The notes under the pieces are model-generated. The model was not told where the DNA came from. It ran no database searches and saw only the letters and a list, made by a program, of their open reading frames with translations. Shown in pieces: positions 16,258 to 23,585 of a stretch of 64,000 nt of DNA; positions within the stretch are counted from its first letter, which is position 1, and the number at the start of each line of letters is the position of its first letter. A program made the position numbers and the translations under genes. The DNA lies in assembly GCF_000388115.1 (NCBI RefSeq), contig NZ_AQGQ01000003.1, forward strand, positions 1 through 64,000, written 5' to 3'. The stretch comes from Aeromonas molluscorum 848 (GTDB lineage: Bacteria; Pseudomonadota; Gammaproteobacteria; Enterobacterales; Aeromonadaceae).

Positions 16258-17643
16258 TTAACCCGCTCGCTTGGCCAGCCACTGTTCGGCGGCGGTGAGG
16301 GCCGCATCTACCAGCTCGCGGGCAACGCCGCCCTTGGCGACCCGCTTGGCCAGGGTCGCTTCCAGCTCCAGGTTGGGATAGACATCCTCGCCAATGACGG
16401 GGCTGAAGCGCTGGAACTCAGGCAAAGAGAGTTCTTCCAGCGGTTTCTTCAACTTGATGGCCTGCACCACCACTTCACCGACGATATGGTGCGCCTCGCG
16501 GAAGGGGATACCCTTGGCGACCAGATAGTCCGCCAGCTCGGTGGCGTTGGCGTAGCCGCCCTGGGCGGCCGCCTTGGTGCGCTCGCCGTTCACTTTCAGA
16601 TCGATCAGGACCAGGGCCGCCATGTCGAGGCAGTCATGCCAGGTGTCCAGGGCATCGAACAGCCCTTCCTTGTCTTCCTGCATGTCCTTGTTGTAGGCCA
16701 GCGGCAACGCCTTGAGGCTCATCAGCATGGCCATCTGGGCGCCGACTACCCGCCCTGTCTTGCCACGAATGAGCTCCAGCGCATCCGGGTTCTTCTTCTG
16801 GGGCATCAGGGAGGAACCCGAGGTGACCGCATCGGAGAGCTCGACGAAGCCCGCTTCGCCGGTGTTGTAGAAGATGAGGTCTTCGGCAAAGCGTGACAGG
16901 TGCGCCATGGAGAGGGACGCCACGTGCATCAGCTCCACCACGTGGTCCCTGTCCGACACCGAATCCAGGCTGTTGCGGGTCGCGCCGCTAAAACCCATGT
17001 CCAGTGCCAGCGCCTCGCGGTCGATGGCATAAGCGGTACCCGCCAGGGCGCCACAGCCAAGGGGGCTGGTGTCGAGCCGCTTGAGCGCATCCTGCAGGCG
17101 GGAATAGTCGCGATCCAGCATCTCCACATAGGCCAGCGCCCAGTGGGCGAAGGTGACCGGCTGGGCACGCTGCAAGTGGGTGTAGCCCGGCAGCACGGCA
17201 GCCTGATTGACACGGGCCGAAGCGACCAGCCCGGCTTGCAGAGCAGTGATGGAGGCGGCAAGCAGCTCCCCTTGCGCCTTGCACCAGAGTTTGAGATCGG
17301 TGGCGACCTGATCGTTGCGCGAGCGGCCAGTATGCAGCTTCTTGCCAAGATCGCCGACGGCGGCGATGAGCTGACTTTCGACCCAGGAGTGAATGTCCTC
17401 GGCATCGGAACTGAGGATCTGCTGGGGATCCCGCTGCACAGAGGCGAGCAGCACTTCCATCGCCTGTTGCAGTTTTCCTTGCTCGTCGGCGGTCAAGACA
17501 CCGACCGTGACCAGAGCGCGGGCCCAGGCCATGGAGCCTTGAATGTCTTGCTCTGCCAGACGGTAGTCAAAGCGCAAGGAGTCATTGAATTGCTTGAACC
17601 GACTATCGGCTCCCTGACTGAAGCGTCCACCCCAAAGTGCCAT
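16258..17643 (-). CDS. argH: Argininosuccinate lyase
   Basis: Cleaves argininosuccinate to arginine and fumarate, the last step of arginine synthesis. It has 461 residues, close to the E. coli length. The fumarase/lyase signature [12 protein letters not shown] lies near residue 279; HTGRSRNDQ near residue 104 and [12 protein letters not shown] near residue 152 are also intact. It starts with MALWGGRF after a good AAGGAG. In this operon it is separated from argG by a lipoprotein gene and two stem-loops, so expression could be partly uncoupled from argCBFG. Confidence 0.97.
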
Positions 17644-17744: not shown

Positions 17745-18065
17745 CTAACCACTGCATTTGGCAGCTTCCAATGCTCGCAGCTGTGTCAGGCGATCACTCG
17801 CCTTTTGTCTTGCCTCAGTCTTAGCAATTCCATTGCCAATACCGAAATCGCCTAATGCACCAAGGACTGTCTTACCATCAAACTCACCAGTACGTTCAAT
17901 CTCTGCCTGAATGCTACGAGTTTTGGCAATTTCCACGTTGATCGCCTGACAGTCAAATACAGCTGACTCTTCGGCACTAACCAAGGGGGCTTGAGGGTAC
18001 TGCTTGGTTGCACATGCAGCGAGTAAAAACGTTGAGAATACAGCCATCCATAGCTTCATATTCAT
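17745..18065 (-). CDS. Small lipoprotein interrupting the arg operon
   Basis: A 106-residue protein with a lipoprotein signal peptide: hydrophobic run VFSTFLLAAC with the lipidated cysteine at residue 18. The mature part contains a likely helical region and a glycine-rich stretch (LGALGDFGIGNGIAK). No family could be recognised. AAGGATG seven bases upstream supports the ATG at 18065. Codon use is visibly more AT-rich than in argG and argH. The gene lies between them, with a stem-loop on each side, which suggests insertion into an ancestral argGH arrangement. Confidence 0.75.
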   Translation of the reverse strand: MNMKLWMAVFSTFLLAACATKQYPQAPLVSAEESAVFDCQAINVEIAKTRSIQAEIERTGEFDGKTVLGALGDFGIGNGIAKTEARQKASDRLTQLRALEAAKCSG

Positions 18066-18127: not shown

Positions 18128-19363
18128 TCAACCGTGGGTATGGTCACCGCCGACCGCCAGGTTCTGTTCTTTCAAGGCACGAATGCGGCTAGCCAGGGTG
18201 TAGAGACGGATGAAGCCTTCGGCATGGCTTTGGTCGTACACCTCGTCGGCGCCGAAGGTGGCGAAATCTTCGGAGTAGAGGCTGTTGGCGGAACGCTTCT
18301 GGGTCGCGTTCACCTGGCCCTTGTACATCTTCAGCACCACTTCGCCGTCCAAATCCTCGGCGATGGCGTTGGCGGAAGCCAGCACCGCCTTGCACAGCGG
18401 AGTGAACCAACGGCCGTCATAGACCAAGTGGGAGAACTCGGCGCCGAGCTTCTCACGCCAGGAGCGGGTTGGTTTGTCCAGCACCAGCTCTTCGATGGCG
18501 CGCAGGGCCGCCATCATGACGGTGCCGCCCGGCGTCTCGTAGCAACCACGGGACTTCATGCCCACCAGACGGTTCTCTGTGATGTCGATACGACCGACGC
18601 CATGTTTGCCGGCGCGCTCGTTCAAGGTCACCAGCACCTGATAGGGGCTCAGGGCCTGGTCGTCCACGGCCACGATCTCGCCCTGCTTGACGGTCAGCTT
18701 GACGTATTCCGGCTCGTTCGGTGCCTGCTCCGGGGAGACGGTCCACTGCCAGACGGCGTCGGACGGCTCGTTCCAGGTGCTCTCCAGCTCGCCACCCTCG
18801 GTGGAGATGTGCCAGGCGTTGGCATCGCGACTGTAAAGCTTCTTCAGGGTCGCCTTGCAGGGGATGTTGCGCGCTTCCAGATAGGCAAGCAGCTCTTCAC
18901 GGGAACGCATGTCCCAGATGCGCCAGGGGGCGATCACTTTGAGCTGGGGAGCCAGCGCGGCCACGGCCCCTTCGAAACGAACCTGATCGTTGCCCTTGCC
19001 GGTGCAACCGTGGGCGATGGCGTCGGCCCCTTCGGCCTTGGCCACTTCCACCATGGCCTTGGCAATCACCGGACGGGCCATGGAGGTACCCAGCAGGTAA
19101 GTGCCTTCGTAGATGGCGCCTGTCTTCAGGGTCGGGTAGACGTACTCTTTGACGAACTCTTCCTTCAGGTCATAGACGATGCACTTGGTAGCACCTGAGG
19201 CCAGGGCCTTCTCTTCCACCCCTTCCAGGTCATCTTCACCCTGACCGACATCGGCCACGAAGGCGATGATCTCGGCGTTGTAGTGCTCTTTGAGCCAAGG
19301 AATGATGGCCGAGGTATCCAGTCCGCCCGAGTAAGTCAGTACTATCTTGTTGATTCCACTCAT
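18128..19363 (-). CDS. argG: Argininosuccinate synthase
   Basis: Joins citrulline and aspartate with ATP to give argininosuccinate. It has 411 residues. The ATP-binding P-loop is [10 protein letters not shown] near residue 9, and [15 protein letters not shown] near residue 117 and [24 protein letters not shown] near residue 255 (family blocks) are intact. The length fits the type found with argF in Vibrio and Shewanella operons. It is the fourth gene of argCBFG, 51 bp after argF. Confidence 0.97.
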
Positions 19364-19414: not shown

Positions 19415-20326
19415 TCAGCTGTGGCCCATCAGGGTCAGCAAGATGGCGTTCTGGATATGCATCCGGTTTTCTGCCTCGTCCAGGATGAGGGAGGCGGGGC
19501 CATCCATCACTTCCGAGGTGATCTCCAGCTCCCGATGGGCCGGTTGGCAGTGCAGCACATGCTGGATACCGGTCCGGTCGAGCAGGGCCTGGTTGATCTG
19601 ATAAGGCATGAAGATCTCTTTTACCTGCTCCATTGGGGTGTTGTCACCCATGGAGACCCAGGTATCGGTGTAGACAACATCGAAGCCCTCGATGTCGGCT
19701 ACGTCGTCACTGATATGAATGGCCGCCCCGGACAGGGCCGCCAGCGCCTCTGCCTGCTTGAATATCTGGGTGTCCGGGCCATGGCCTTTCGGACAGATCA
19801 GGGTCACGTCCGTGCCGAGCGTCGCCCCCAGGAGCAGCAGGGAGTGACTGACGTTGTTGCCATCCCCCAGGTAGGCAAGCTTGACCTTGGACAGGTCGTC
19901 ATAGTGTTCGGCGATGGTCATGAAATCGGCCAGCCCCTGACAGGGGTGGTAGAGGTTGCACAGGCTGTTGACCACGGGCACGGTCGCGTACTTTTGCAGG
20001 TCGACCAGGGTCTGGTGATCGAATACCCGGGCAACGATGGCATCACACCAACGGGACAGATTGGCAGCGAAATCCTGCACGGATTCGCGCTTGCCAAGCG
20101 CACCGTTTTGCTGATCCAGGTAGACGCTATGGCCACCCAGCTTGGCGATGCCGATGTCGAAGGTGACCCGGGTGCGCAGGGAGGGCTTCTCGAACAGGGT
20201 GACCACCGCCTTGCCCGCCAGGGCCTGGCCGTACTTTTTCGGATTTGCCTTGACCTGCTTGCCCAGAGCAATCAGGGCCAGGATCTGGGCCTTGTCGAGG
20301 TCGCTGTCTTTGAGCAGATGTTGCAT
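19415..20326 (-). CDS. argF: Ornithine carbamoyltransferase
   Basis: Transfers the carbamoyl group to ornithine, giving citrulline. It has 303 residues. The carbamoyl-phosphate loop reads KPSLRTRVTF rather than the commoner STRTR, followed by HPCQGLAD, and the ornithine loop reads HCQPAHR instead of HCLPA. These variants, as I recall them, are those of the Vibrio/Shewanella-type ArgF, so they are not read as damage. DTWVSMGD near residue 222 supports ornithine use. It lies 21 bp after argB. Confidence 0.94.
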   Translation of the reverse strand: MQHLLKDSDLDKAQILALIALGKQVKANPKKYGQALAGKAVVTLFEKPSLRTRVTFDIGIAKLGGHSVYLDQQNGALGKRESVQDFAANLSRWCDAIVARVFDHQTLVDLQKYATVPVVNSLCNLYHPCQGLADFMTIAEHYDDLSKVKLAYLGDGNNVSHSLLLLGATLGTDVTLICPKGHGPDTQIFKQAEALAALSGAAIHISDDVADIEGFDVVYTDTWVSMGDNTPMEQVKEIFMPYQINQALLDRTGIQHVLHCQPAHRELEITSEVMDGPASLILDEAENRMHIQNAILLTLMGHS

Positions 20327-20347: not shown

Positions 20348-21127
20348 TTAGAGGGTTACCTGGGTGCCGATGGCGGCGCCGCCAAGCAGCTTGAGCAGCT
20401 GATCCGGGTAGCGCCAGCTGGCGACACAAACCGGCTGGCCCAGGGTTTCTGCTGCGTGCAGCGCGGCCTTCACCTTGACGGCCATGCCATCGGTGATGAC
20501 ACCCTTCTCCATCAGATCTTGAGCGGTGGCCTTGTCCAGCTGGGGAAGCAGTTTGCCCTTGCCATCCAGGATGCCGCTCACGTCCGACAGCATCACCAGA
20601 TCCGCATCCAGTGTTTCTGCGATGGCGGTGGCGGCCTGATCCGCATTGACGTTCATCAGCTGGCCGTCCGCCGTGATGCCGATGGAGCTGATGACCGGCA
20701 GGAACTGCTGGGAGAGAATACCGTGCACCAGCGCCGGGTTGCCCGGTGAACAGTCACCGACCGCGCCGAGCTCAGGATCCAGCTGCACGACTTGGCACAG
20801 ACCGCCATCAGCCAGGCAGAGCCCCACCGCCGGGATGCCGCAGGCGATGGCCTTGGCCATCATCTGCTTGTTGGCCGTACCGGCCAGCGCACCCGCGACA
20901 AAGGGGATCTGGTCGAATGGGGTCACCCGCAGGCCATGCTTCTTGGTGGAGGTGAGCCCCAGTCCCTTGAGCAGATCATCGACCAGGCAGCCACCGCCAT
21001 GTACCAGCACCAGAGGTCTGTGCTGCTCGTCCAGGAAGGTCTTCAAGGTCGCGAACAGGGCGGTCAGGGCCTCATCGCTCTCGATCAGGGCACCACCCAA
21101 CTTGATTACCAATGTCTGTTTGTTCAT
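20348..21127 (-). CDS. argB: Acetylglutamate kinase
   Basis: Phosphorylates N-acetylglutamate, the second step of arginine synthesis. It has 259 residues, starting [17 protein letters not shown] with the Gly-rich ATP loop. VLVHGGG near residue 41, the [12 protein letters not shown] segment and [14 protein letters not shown] are characteristic. No N-terminal extension of the arginine-sensitive hexameric type is present, so control probably comes from transcription and from the first pathway enzyme elsewhere. It lies 15 bp after argC. Confidence 0.96.
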
Positions 21128-21142
21128 CTTCTCGATCCTTCC

Positions 21143-22150
21143 TTAAATCAGGCCGGTGGCCGGTTCAAAACCAAACTTGATGTTCACGCACTGAATAGCC
21201 TGAGAGGCCGCACCTTTGAGCAGGTTGTCGATGGCAGAGACCACCACCAGCATGTTGCCCTGCTGCTGCCAGGCCAGATCGCAATAAGGAGTGCTCGCCA
21301 CACCACGGATGGAGGGCATCTGACCGGTGAGGCGCACCAGGGGCTTGCCTTCGTAGGCGGCGAGATAGGTTCTATCCACCTGCTCCGGGGTCACCCCCTC
21401 GGCCAGTTGCACATAGATGGTGGCCAGAATGCCACGCACATAGTTGCCAAGGTGTGGCTGGAACAGCACGCCCTTGCCGAGGTGATGGCTGATCTCCGGC
21501 TGATGTCTGTGAGTGAAGGTGCCATAAGGGCTCAGGCTCACTTCGCAGAAGCTGGTGTTGACCGATGCCTTGCGGCCGGCGCCAGAGACACCGGAGACCG
21601 CGTTTATGATGGGCTGCCAGTCCGCCTTGATGAGACCCGCCTGTTGCAGCGGCTTGAGGGCGCACAGGGAGGCGGTCGGGTAGCAGCCGGGCACGGCGAT
21701 GAGCTGGGCGGCCGCAATGGCCTCGCTGTTCCACTCGGCCAGGCCGTAGGCAGCCTGTGCCAGCCACTGTTCATTGGCGTGGGTGAAGCCGTAGTAGTCC
21801 TGATAGAACTGTTGATCCTGCACCCGGAAGGCACCGGAGAGATCGAACACCGGCAGTCCCTTGGCCAGGAACTTGGGCGCCAGATCGGCACTCACCTCGT
21901 GGGCGGTGGCCAGCAGCACCAGATCGGCCTGGGTCAGGATCCGGGTCATGCCATCCTCATCCAGGGGCAGCAGCGGCTGATCCAGCTCGCCGACCCACTG
22001 GGGATGAAGAGAGGAGAAACGCTTGTGGGCGTCCTGGCTGCCAGCGGAGACATAGAGGCCGAACAGCTTGAGTTGGGGGTGGTTCTGCACCAGGGCGGCC
22101 AGCTCTGCTCCCGCGTAGCCACTGGCACCGACGATAACGGTGTTAAGCAT
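21143..22150 (-). CDS. argC: N-acetyl-gamma-glutamyl-phosphate reductase
   Basis: NADPH-dependent reduction of N-acetylglutamyl phosphate to the semialdehyde. It has 335 residues. The dinucleotide-binding motif GASGYAGAEL is at the N-terminus; the catalytic cysteine lies in AVPGCYPTAS near residue 152, and HRHQPEI near residue 215 supplies the catalytic histidine. It is the first structural gene of the operon. Its 5' leader of more than 200 nt holds an Arg-rich leader peptide ORF (22280-22324) and possible alternative stem-loops, with ArgR boxes further upstream. Confidence 0.96.
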   Translation of the reverse strand: MLNTVIVGASGYAGAELAALVQNHPQLKLFGLYVSAGSQDAHKRFSSLHPQWVGELDQPLLPLDEDGMTRILTQADLVLLATAHEVSADLAPKFLAKGLPVFDLSGAFRVQDQQFYQDYYGFTHANEQWLAQAAYGLAEWNSEAIAAAQLIAVPGCYPTASLCALKPLQQAGLIKADWQPIINAVSGVSGAGRKASVNTSFCEVSLSPYGTFTHRHQPEISHHLGKGVLFQPHLGNYVRGILATIYVQLAEGVTPEQVDRTYLAAYEGKPLVRLTGQMPSIRGVASTPYCDLAWQQQGNMLVVVSAIDNLLKGAASQAIQCVNIKFGFEPATGLI

Positions 22151-22206
22151 TGATCAATTCCAAAATCTGAGGAGTGGGTTCACAGCATGATGCTGCATAA
22201 GGATTA

Positions 22207-22282
22207 AGAGGCCGTGAATCGCCTCTCCATTCTTGCGTAGCAAGTGTGCAACGAGCGGGTCAGCTCATGCGGAGGCAATTCA
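22207..22282 (-). promoter_or_regulatory. Possible arginine attenuator in the argC leader
   Basis: Three RNA segments on the minus strand can form two exclusive pairings. Segment A (22282-22271, TGAATTGCCTC, overlapping the leader-peptide stop) can pair over 11 bp, with one G-U, with segment B (22225-22215, GAGGCGATTCA). Segment B can instead pair with segment C (22212-22207) as AGAGGC/GCCTCT with an 8-base loop. A ribosome at the leader stop would mask A and favour B:C. A ribosome stalled on the Arg codons would leave A free. There is no strong T run after C, so intrinsic termination is uncertain. Confidence 0.45.
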
Positions 22283-22324
22283 GGCGGGGTTGCGTCGTCG
22301 GTGATAGATCAGGTGACAGAACAT
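22280..22324 (-). CDS. Arginine-rich leader peptide upstream of argC (14 aa)
   Basis: The frame reads MFCHLIYHRRRNPA and stops with TGA. Three consecutive arginine codons (CGA CGA CGC, 22300-22292) end three codons before the stop. AAGGGA seven bases before the ATG is a good ribosome binding site. It lies between the ARG boxes and argC. By analogy with His, Thr, Leu and Trp leader peptides, arginyl-tRNA shortage would stall a ribosome at the Arg run and change folding of the downstream leader RNA. I know of no described arginine leader peptide at this position; that statement is from memory and was not checked. Confidence 0.6.
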   Translation of the reverse strand: MFCHLIYHRRRNPA

Positions 22325-22366
22325 TGACTTTCCCTTACAACTAGAGCCTTATCGATGAGCGCAAGA

Positions 22367-22405
22367 ACAGAATATTCATTCACTCAGTTTGCATTTGTAT
22401 TTTCT
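22367..22405. promoter_or_regulatory. Tandem ARG boxes (ArgR operator) between argC and argE
   Basis: The left 18-bp box (22367-22384), read on the minus strand, is TGAATGAATATTCT against the consensus TGAATWWWWATTCA. The right box (22388-22405) is weaker (TGCATTTGTATTTT). They are 3 bp apart, the usual spacing for a hexameric ArgR site. Their place between divergent argC and argE fits repression of both by arginine-bound ArgR. Confidence 0.78.
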
Positions 22406-22439
22406 AACAGAAACCTTCCGAGGGTGCAAGGAGGAGCTA

Positions 22440-23585
22440 GTGGCCAATCAGGATTTTTTTTCACTTTATAAGAATATTATTGCAATACCCTCTATCAGCA
22501 GCACGGACCCCAAGTGGGATCAGAGCAATCAAGGGGTGATCAGGCTGCTGGCCGATTGGTTCGGCCAACTCGGTTTTCAGTGTGACGTGACCGCGTTGCC
22601 GGACTTGCCCGGCAAGTACAATCTGGTCGCCACCTATGGCCAGGGTGAGGGGGGGCTGCTGCTGGCAGGTCACACCGATACGGTGCCGTTCGACCAGGGC
22701 GCCTGGCGCAAGGATCCCTTCAAGGTGACAGAAGAGGGCAACCGCCTCTATGGCCTTGGTACCATCGACATGAAGGGCTTCTTCGCCTTTATCGTCGAGG
22801 CGCTCAAAGGCATCGATCTCAAGACCCTCAACAAGCCCCTGCGCATTCTGGCCACCGCCGATGAGGAGACCACCATGGCGGGGGCTCGCGCCATCGCCGC
22901 GGCCGCCGAGCTAAAACCCGACTATGCGGTGATAGGCGAACCCACGGGGCTGGTGCCCGTGGTAGCCCACAAGGGCCACATGTCCGAAGCCATTCGCATC
23001 ACGGGTCGCAGCGGTCACAGCTCGGATCCCGCCAACGGCATCAACGCCCTGGAGATCATGCATCAGGCCATGGGGCAGGTATTGGCGCTGCAACGCAGCC
23101 TCAAGGATAAGTATGCAGATCACCGCTTCGCGGTGCCGCAACCTACCCTGAATCTGGGTTACATCCAGGGGGGCGATAGCCCGAATCGCATCTGCGGTTG
23201 CTGCGAGTTGCACATCGACATGCGCCCCACTCCCCAGGTCGGTCCGGATGAGTTGCTGGGCTTGCTCAAGGAGGCGCTCTCCCCCATAGAAATCCACCAA
23301 CCCGGCTGCCTGCACCTGCAACACCTGCACGAGCCCATCCCCGCCTACGCCTGTGATGACAGCTCCCTGCTGGTGCGTGAAGCCGAACAGGCGAGTGGCA
23401 AGCGCGCCGAATCGGTCAACTACTGCACCGAGGCCCCCTTCATCCAGCAGCTCGGCTGCCAGACCATCGTAATGGGTCCTGGCCACATCGCCCAGGCACA
23501 CCAGCCGGACGAATACCTGGATCTCTCTTTCGTCGAACCGACCAAGGCAGTGCTGCAACATCTGATCCGCCGCTTCTGCGTCTAG
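22440..23585 (+). CDS. argE: Acetylornithine deacetylase
   Basis: Metal-dependent hydrolysis of N-acetylornithine to ornithine and acetate, the linear version of arginine synthesis. It has 381 residues with a GTG start at 22440, which follows AAGGAGG by five bases; the longer ATG frame from 22389 overlaps the ARG boxes and has no ribosome binding site. M20 peptidase landmarks are [16 protein letters not shown] near residue 65, [10 protein letters not shown] near residue 102, ADEETTMAG with the catalytic Glu, and [14 protein letters not shown] near the end. It is divergent from argCBFG. The terminal codons TTC TGC GTC TAG are the first bases of a roughly 113-bp tandem repeat that continues downstream. 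Confidence 0.95.

Follow-up and report, generated by a model that had tools for sequence, protein, structure and literature searches.

Among the closest described systems to the locus reported here are the attenuators of the his, trp, leu, thr, ilv and phe operons. In these, as upstream of argC in Aeromonas, the operon is preceded by a short open reading frame (ORF) that contains end-product codons; the RNA downstream has alternative pairings, which for argC are predicted. To our knowledge, the amino acids served by known leader-peptide attenuators do not include arginine. Other leader peptides, such as SpeFL and TnaC, arrest the ribosome as nascent chains, and ArgR, which senses free arginine, works on promoter DNA.

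Two consecutive arginine codons sense arginine in orf34, the leader of Salmonella speF, and translation of orf34 interferes with Rho-dependent termination (PMC6386406, in the sections available). The codons concerned are AGG-CGG, and arginine control was kept when they were replaced with CGC-CGC or CGA-CGA (same sections); since orf34 responds with CGC-CGC as well, codon rarity is not needed there. Unlike the argC leader, orf34 controls ornithine decarboxylase and encodes a peptide of 34 residues whose HIRRT core is conserved (same sections). By eye, the HIRRT core of SpeFL/orf34 (DUF2618) was not found in the argC leader peptides, and the gene behind the leader is argC rather than speF. Codon choice does matter in attenuators, as with CUA in leu, cited in the available part of PMC1183508.

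In the part of PMC5343134 available, gammaproteobacterial arginine biosynthesis appears as an ArgR-controlled regulon, and attenuation is mentioned for tryptophan and phenylalanine genes only. Among the papers listed in searches of a largely open-access literature, none was recognised as describing a leader of argC or of any other arg operon. The main text of PMC2965389, on premature terminators, contains neither arginine nor argC; that of PMC2659441, on Shewanella cis-regulatory RNAs, does not contain argC; and in PMC1382215, which deals with arg genes in marine gammaproteobacteria, neither 'leader' nor 'attenuat-' occurs.

Results

A short ORF upstream of argC

The window is the whole stretch of DNA that was analysed, 64,000 nucleotides from Aeromonas molluscorum 848. 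A preliminary description had read the region before its argC gene as an arginine attenuator with an 'RRR' leader peptide. The 14-codon ORF that it placed there is indeed present at 22280..22324 on the minus strand, between the plus-strand gene argE and the minus-strand gene argC: the letters, read directly, are ATGTTCTGTCACCTGATCTATCACCGACGACGCAACCCCGCCTGA from 22324 to 22280, with the translation MFCHLIYHRRRNPA, and the ORF is kept in every one of the 37 Aeromonas genomes read. The Shine-Dalgarno-like site AAGGGA (22331..22336, minus) was also correctly located, but six bases, rather than seven, lie between it and the leader ATG.

Within the ORF, the putative control codons are CGA-CGA (22295..22300, minus), which are in frame and common to the leaders of eight families. 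They are followed in the window by a third arginine codon, CGC (22292..22294, minus), so that the run of three described previously does exist at this locus. However, the third position is occupied by Arg in only 12 of the 37 Aeromonas genomes, the others having His (24) or Pro (1), and therefore the conserved signal is CGA-CGA, not 'RRR'. The attenuator reading was upheld to the extent that a leader with conserved arginine codons precedes argC, with the nature of its signal corrected.

A scan of 22140-22480 returned 0 terminator-like and 0 promoter-like sites, in agreement with the earlier remark that no T run follows the hairpin formed by segments B and C (see below). Rfam curated covariance models, applied at a relaxed threshold, gave two matches far below gathering scores, both on the opposite strand and neither exceeding chance.

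Gene order and ArgR context

NCBIfam profiles identified the genes behind the leader, all on the minus strand, as argC-argB-argF-argG-argH, with argE divergent. The first gene of the presumed operon is argC (21143..22150; TIGR01850, 371.8 bits, cut-off 233.6), followed by argB (20348..21127; TIGR00761, 210.6 bits, cut-off 151.3), argF, encoding ornithine carbamoyltransferase (19415..20326; NF011380, 555.1 bits, cut-off 421), argG (18128..19363; NF001770, 596.5 bits, cut-off 334) and argH (16258..17643; TIGR00838, 647.6 bits, cut-off 279.5). On the plus strand, argE occupies 22440..23585 (NF003474, 607.2 bits, cut-off 460), with a probable GTG start. The ArgC proteins of the window and of A. 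rivuli (L134) share 98% identity. Between argG and argH there is a lipoprotein-like ORF of 106 amino acids (17745-18065, minus) with no NCBIfam match at 1e-10.

Two ArgR-box-like sequences were located on the minus strand, TGAATGAATATTCT (22369..22382) and TGTTAGAAAATACA (22396..22409), with 2 and 3 mismatches respectively to a box pattern that was very permissive, giving at least one match at every CGACGA locus scanned. From box-like matches of this kind, with 2-3 mismatches, we infer putative ArgR control of the argC operon.

Conservation within the Aeromonadaceae

All 75 genomes of the family yielded an ArgC, and every one of the 75 upstream regions was scanned; a leader with an ATG ORF was present in 64 of these loci. 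Among the 37 genomes of Aeromonas itself, CGACGA and AAGGGA occurred in all 37 and the leader ATG in 36; the remaining genome, G025, has ATA in its place. The residues MFCHL are almost invariant in Aeromonas leader peptides. In the other genera, leaders such as MAMSFLPSIQRRRQLA were found in 16 of 23 genomes of g3, MFIQQFFFARRYISV-like leaders in 11 of 11 of g5, and a leader ending in ...QLRRRSS in the single genome of g2, while CGA-CGA leaders were found in none of three loci of g4. One locus of g3, G055, contains CGACGA without such an ORF.

In Aeromonas (37 genomes), the sequence surrounding the start of the leader (22341-22308, minus; TTGTAAGGGAAA...ATGTTCTGTCACCT) is nearly constant, including the third positions of codons 2-4. 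As read from these alignments, the constraint at this point is greater than two arginine codons would explain. The g4 genome G061, with a leader (ATGTTCTGTCACCGCTAA) that has one Arg codon only, retains most of the leader-start sequence.

Other arginine loci of Aeromonas were searched in 11 genomes each, and no such leader was found before carA (10 loci) or argA (10 loci). CGACGA occurred at one carA and one argA locus, but without an ATG ORF containing Arg-Arg.

Distribution beyond the family

The order-level sample comprised 295 genomes, of which 269 had ArgC, 246 of them outside the family; 96 of these 246 upstream regions were read. A leader was defined as an ATG ORF of at most 34 codons with CGA-CGA, lying within 230 nt of argC. 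The first 47 loci outside the family were sampled across families before any result was obtained, and 10 of them had a leader; later sampling partly followed families that were already positive, so the totals given here are not frequencies. Overall, 99 of 199 loci had an ATG ORF with CGA-CGA, against 0.65 expected from dinucleotide shuffles (0.53 in a repeat). By family, the leader was present in 64/75 loci of f1, 8/9 of f2, 7/8 of f6, 8/16 of f7, 1/2 of f11, 4/4 of f13, 3/3 of f16 and 4/5 of f17. It was not found in the loci of f3 (6), f5 (1), f9 (3), f10 (10), f12 (5), f15 (3), f19 (5), f21 (3), f22 (10), f26 (1) and f27 (2), and CGACGA was present in none of 28 outgroup loci from outside the order, these being the best-scoring 28 of 180 matching genomes.

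A set of 80 named argC loci, which overlaps with the numbered genomes and was not added to them, showed the leader in 20 and its absence from 60. The positives include 11 from Aeromonadaceae or Aeromonadales, four from Pseudoalteromonas (MKIMRR, twice, MNIKRR and MNTKRR), and others from Algicola, Grimontia, Enterovibrio, Photobacterium rosenbergii and Paraglaciecola arctica; the 60 named loci without CGACGA include Vibrio, Aliivibrio, Psychromonas, Escherichia, Salmonella, Klebsiella, Yersinia and Xenorhabdus. These comparisons of sequence showed that a short predicted ORF with in-frame CGA-CGA has been kept before argC in at least eight families. Outside the CGA pair, the leader peptides differ between families, and some are only six residues long.

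In G075 (f2), the first CGA is TGA, and a leader of the MNRFSSFRRDSI type is shortened to seven codons, constituting a natural nonsense variant. The argC match of an f6 genome (G159:C1:275328-276302) contains one internal TGA. TTG-started ORFs in some Vibrio loci (L145, L182, G095) that end in RR or KR do not contain CGA-CGA; they were left out of the count because, as we read the sequence, they overlap a TTGACA promoter-like stretch.

Reading frame and codon choice

Among 75 distinct CGACGA contexts, an in-frame ATG and a stop within 12 codons were found 69 times in the CGA frame, and 1 and 6 times in the other frames. The 65 distinct leaders were 7-33 codons long (median 16), with 62-139 nt (median 91) between leader stop and argC; in 59 of the 65, the CGA pair lay 0-6 codons from the stop. 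A Shine-Dalgarno-like site preceded 20 of the 65, when the first in-frame ATG was taken, against 8.7 expected. CGA itself accounts for 86 of 1058 Arg codons (8.1%) in 41 long ORFs of the window. Other Arg-Arg codon pairs were also counted, to avoid the circularity of searching by CGACGA: ATG ORFs with such pairs and no CGA-CGA occurred at 8 loci, below the 18.3 expected by chance.

This deficit bears on the possibility that the nascent leader peptide is itself the sensor of free arginine or ornithine and stalls the ribosome, in which case the codons would matter only as Arg-Arg residues. Such a peptide would be consistent with Arg-Arg being the common residue pair, with the several leaders that end in RR-stop (as MKIMRR and MNIKRR in Pseudoalteromonas) and with the near invariance of MFCHL in Aeromonas. 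However, the peptides of different families are unalike outside the pair and go down to six residues, leaving little to recognise, and synonymous pairs, which encode the same residues, are not above chance; arrest by the peptide is improbable.

It is similarly improbable that the CGA pair serves as a constant slow site to keep ribosome and RNA polymerase coupled, or as a general sensor of translation speed, with no report of arginine. CGA pairs did slow the his leader of Salmonella in strains for which no arginine starvation is described (part of PMC4046918), and two control codons are few, but the element stands upstream of an arginine operon and is absent at the carA and argA loci searched, while the isoacceptors of CGA also read CGC and CGT in enteric bacteria and so can report arginine supply (parts of PMC10325894 and PMC4046918).

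That CGACGA is a nucleotide signal, either a protein site or an RNA pairing partner, with the ORF incidental, is very unlikely: synonymous Arg-Arg pairs not exceeding chance, the position of the motif within a stem in f17 and the invariance of Aeromonas codons 2-4 even at third positions would suit it, but the ATG and near stop belong to the CGA frame in the great majority of contexts (69/75), and a 6-nt CGACGA complement (G-U allowed) lies nearby in 16 of 84 distinct leaders outside f17, close to the background of 9/69 loci without CGACGA and 4/28 outgroups. RNA pairing was rejected as an explanation of CGACGA on this basis, except in f17, where the complement was nearby in three of four distinct leaders.

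RNA folding and the output step

Three segments following the CGA codons on the minus strand were chosen by hand: A (22271..22281), which overlaps the leader stop and can pair with B; B (22216..22227), which can pair with A or C; and C (22206..22213), after which there is no T run. Both of the pairings proposed in the preliminary description are possible, but their lengths of 11 bp (A:B) and 6 bp (B:C) were revised by hand count to 10 contiguous pairs, nine Watson-Crick and one G-U, and to 7 pairs, six and one G-U. The whole leader folded only slightly better than its shuffles, 12 of 200 of which did equally well (z = -1.72).

The RNA remaining free was then folded for 35 distinct Aeromonas leaders, with the ribosome placed either at the first CGA (stalled) or at the stop codon; the counts are of minimum-energy folds and carry no shuffled control. 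In the stop state, B paired with C in 34 of 35 leaders (the exception being G011); in the stalled state, the partner of B was A in 23 leaders and C in 12. Covariation was assessed among eleven Aeromonas sequence types by permuting partners, with the reservation that hand-chosen segments are biased towards pairing. For B:C, 12 of 5000 permutations were as good as the native arrangement; for A:B, 414 of 5000 were as good, which is not significant; and the control pairing A:C showed nothing (1461 of 5000).

A further hairpin, D (GCAGCA-TCA-TGCTG; 22183..22196, minus), lies about 35 nt before argC and is recurrent in Aeromonas in the form GCAGC...GCTGC, as judged from alignment by eye. Grimontia and Enterovibrio have hairpins that resemble it.

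No intrinsic terminator was found at any of 66 Aeromonadaceae loci with CGACGA, against 6.6 expected from shuffles. The RNA after the CGA pair at these loci has a C content of 0.31 and a G content of 0.21; C-rich, G-poor RNA would suit Rho but proves nothing. The automatic terminator scan was lax, with high expected counts, and the argument rests on hairpins inspected individually.

In f7, the scan returned a terminator at six of nine CGACGA loci, against 3.2 expected, and three of seven f7 loci without CGACGA also scored. A strong hairpin and T tract follow the CGA pair in the Alteromonas-like f7 loci G326, G175, G104 and G160, and in Paraglaciecola L201. However, the f7 loci G344 and G318 have a terminator-type hairpin although they lack the CGA pair, and so the f7 terminators may belong to a further element. 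In G175 and G104, both Alteromonas-like, the stop codon adjoins the terminator stem, an arrangement that fits poorly with classical attenuation logic; G104 has no in-frame ATG for its CGA pair. Five f7 loci (L201, G175, G104, G344, G326) share, by eye, a CTCCCTGGCTGGCTAC-like stretch about 25 nt before the CGACGA position, together with strong terminators. In the Alteromonas-like f7 loci, this stretch is perhaps a separate RNA element.

The arrangement in f17 is different again, since in G090 and G133 the CGA codons and the stop lie in the 5' arm of a hairpin that is followed by a TCTTTT-like tail. The same arrangement was seen by eye in G180 and in the variant G206.

Discussion

The CGA-CGA leader probably constitutes a cis-acting gauge of arginine in the argC transcript, acting on top of ArgR. 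The leader itself is well supported, and confidence is lowest for the output step in Aeromonas. Given the absent intrinsic terminator, the Aeromonas leader would best be said to 'work like' a leader-peptide attenuator; ribosome-mediated transcription attenuation is putative in Aeromonas itself.

In the mechanism proposed, the leader ORF would be translated by ribosomes. If the charged inosine-34 tRNA-Arg that reads CGA were scarce, the ribosome would wait at CGA-CGA, leaving A free to pair with B; with ample arginine, the ribosome would reach the stop codon and cover A, so that B would pair with C. B:C, or some consequence of it such as a C-rich stretch exposed to Rho, would then lower expression of argC and the genes downstream. 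The output may resemble ordinary intrinsic termination in some Alteromonas-like relatives, and in f17, where the CGA codons lie in the terminator stem, a waiting ribosome would block the terminator directly.

More tentatively, the leader may be a codon-specific sensor. Only CGA is used, and its poor I-A wobble with inosine-34 tRNA-Arg could make a leader with two such codons, even one of six residues, sensitive to the charging of an isoacceptor on which the common codons CGC and CGT depend as well; this would amount to tRNA-level control by arginine across many gammaproteobacterial families, which E. coli has lost or never had. CGA, CGC and CGT do share isoacceptors in enteric bacteria (parts of PMC10325894 and PMC4046918), and part of PMC1183508 cites verification that Arg isoacceptors are charged selectively. 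A related idea concerning another place, that tandem CGG codons within E. coli argA act as a sensor, was proposed in PMC10325894 (in the part available).

With an Arg-codon leader conserved in at least eight families, the leader-peptide class would gain a further amino acid, and a second layer of control that is missing from the E. coli model would be revealed. The exclusive use of CGA would also be a natural test of the way in which sensors of this type are tuned by their codons.

Among individual systems, rbfL of Staphylococcus aureus is similar to the argC leader in that rare Arg codons in a leader ORF serve to sense arginine limitation, but its codons are AGA and AGG, and starvation represses, since translation of rbf is blocked by the waiting ribosome (part of PMC13009471). 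Pseudomonas aeruginosa carAB likewise has a leader peptide before an arginine/pyrimidine operon, with possible attenuation; as told in the available part of PMC4997734, however, that attenuation is tied to pyrimidines and control by arginine is transcriptional. Repression by ArgR concerns the same operon, with box-like sites upstream, whereas the proposed leader would sense tRNA charging and control, in cis, the transcript of which it is part. Finally, the argC leader differs from the classical attenuators in its end product, arginine, in the pair CGA-CGA, in the intrinsic terminator that was not found in Aeromonas, and in peptides that are unalike between families. It would join the leader-peptide attenuators as a member with arginine as the end product, and an unusual one, with a CGA-CGA rule and, in Aeromonas, no terminator.
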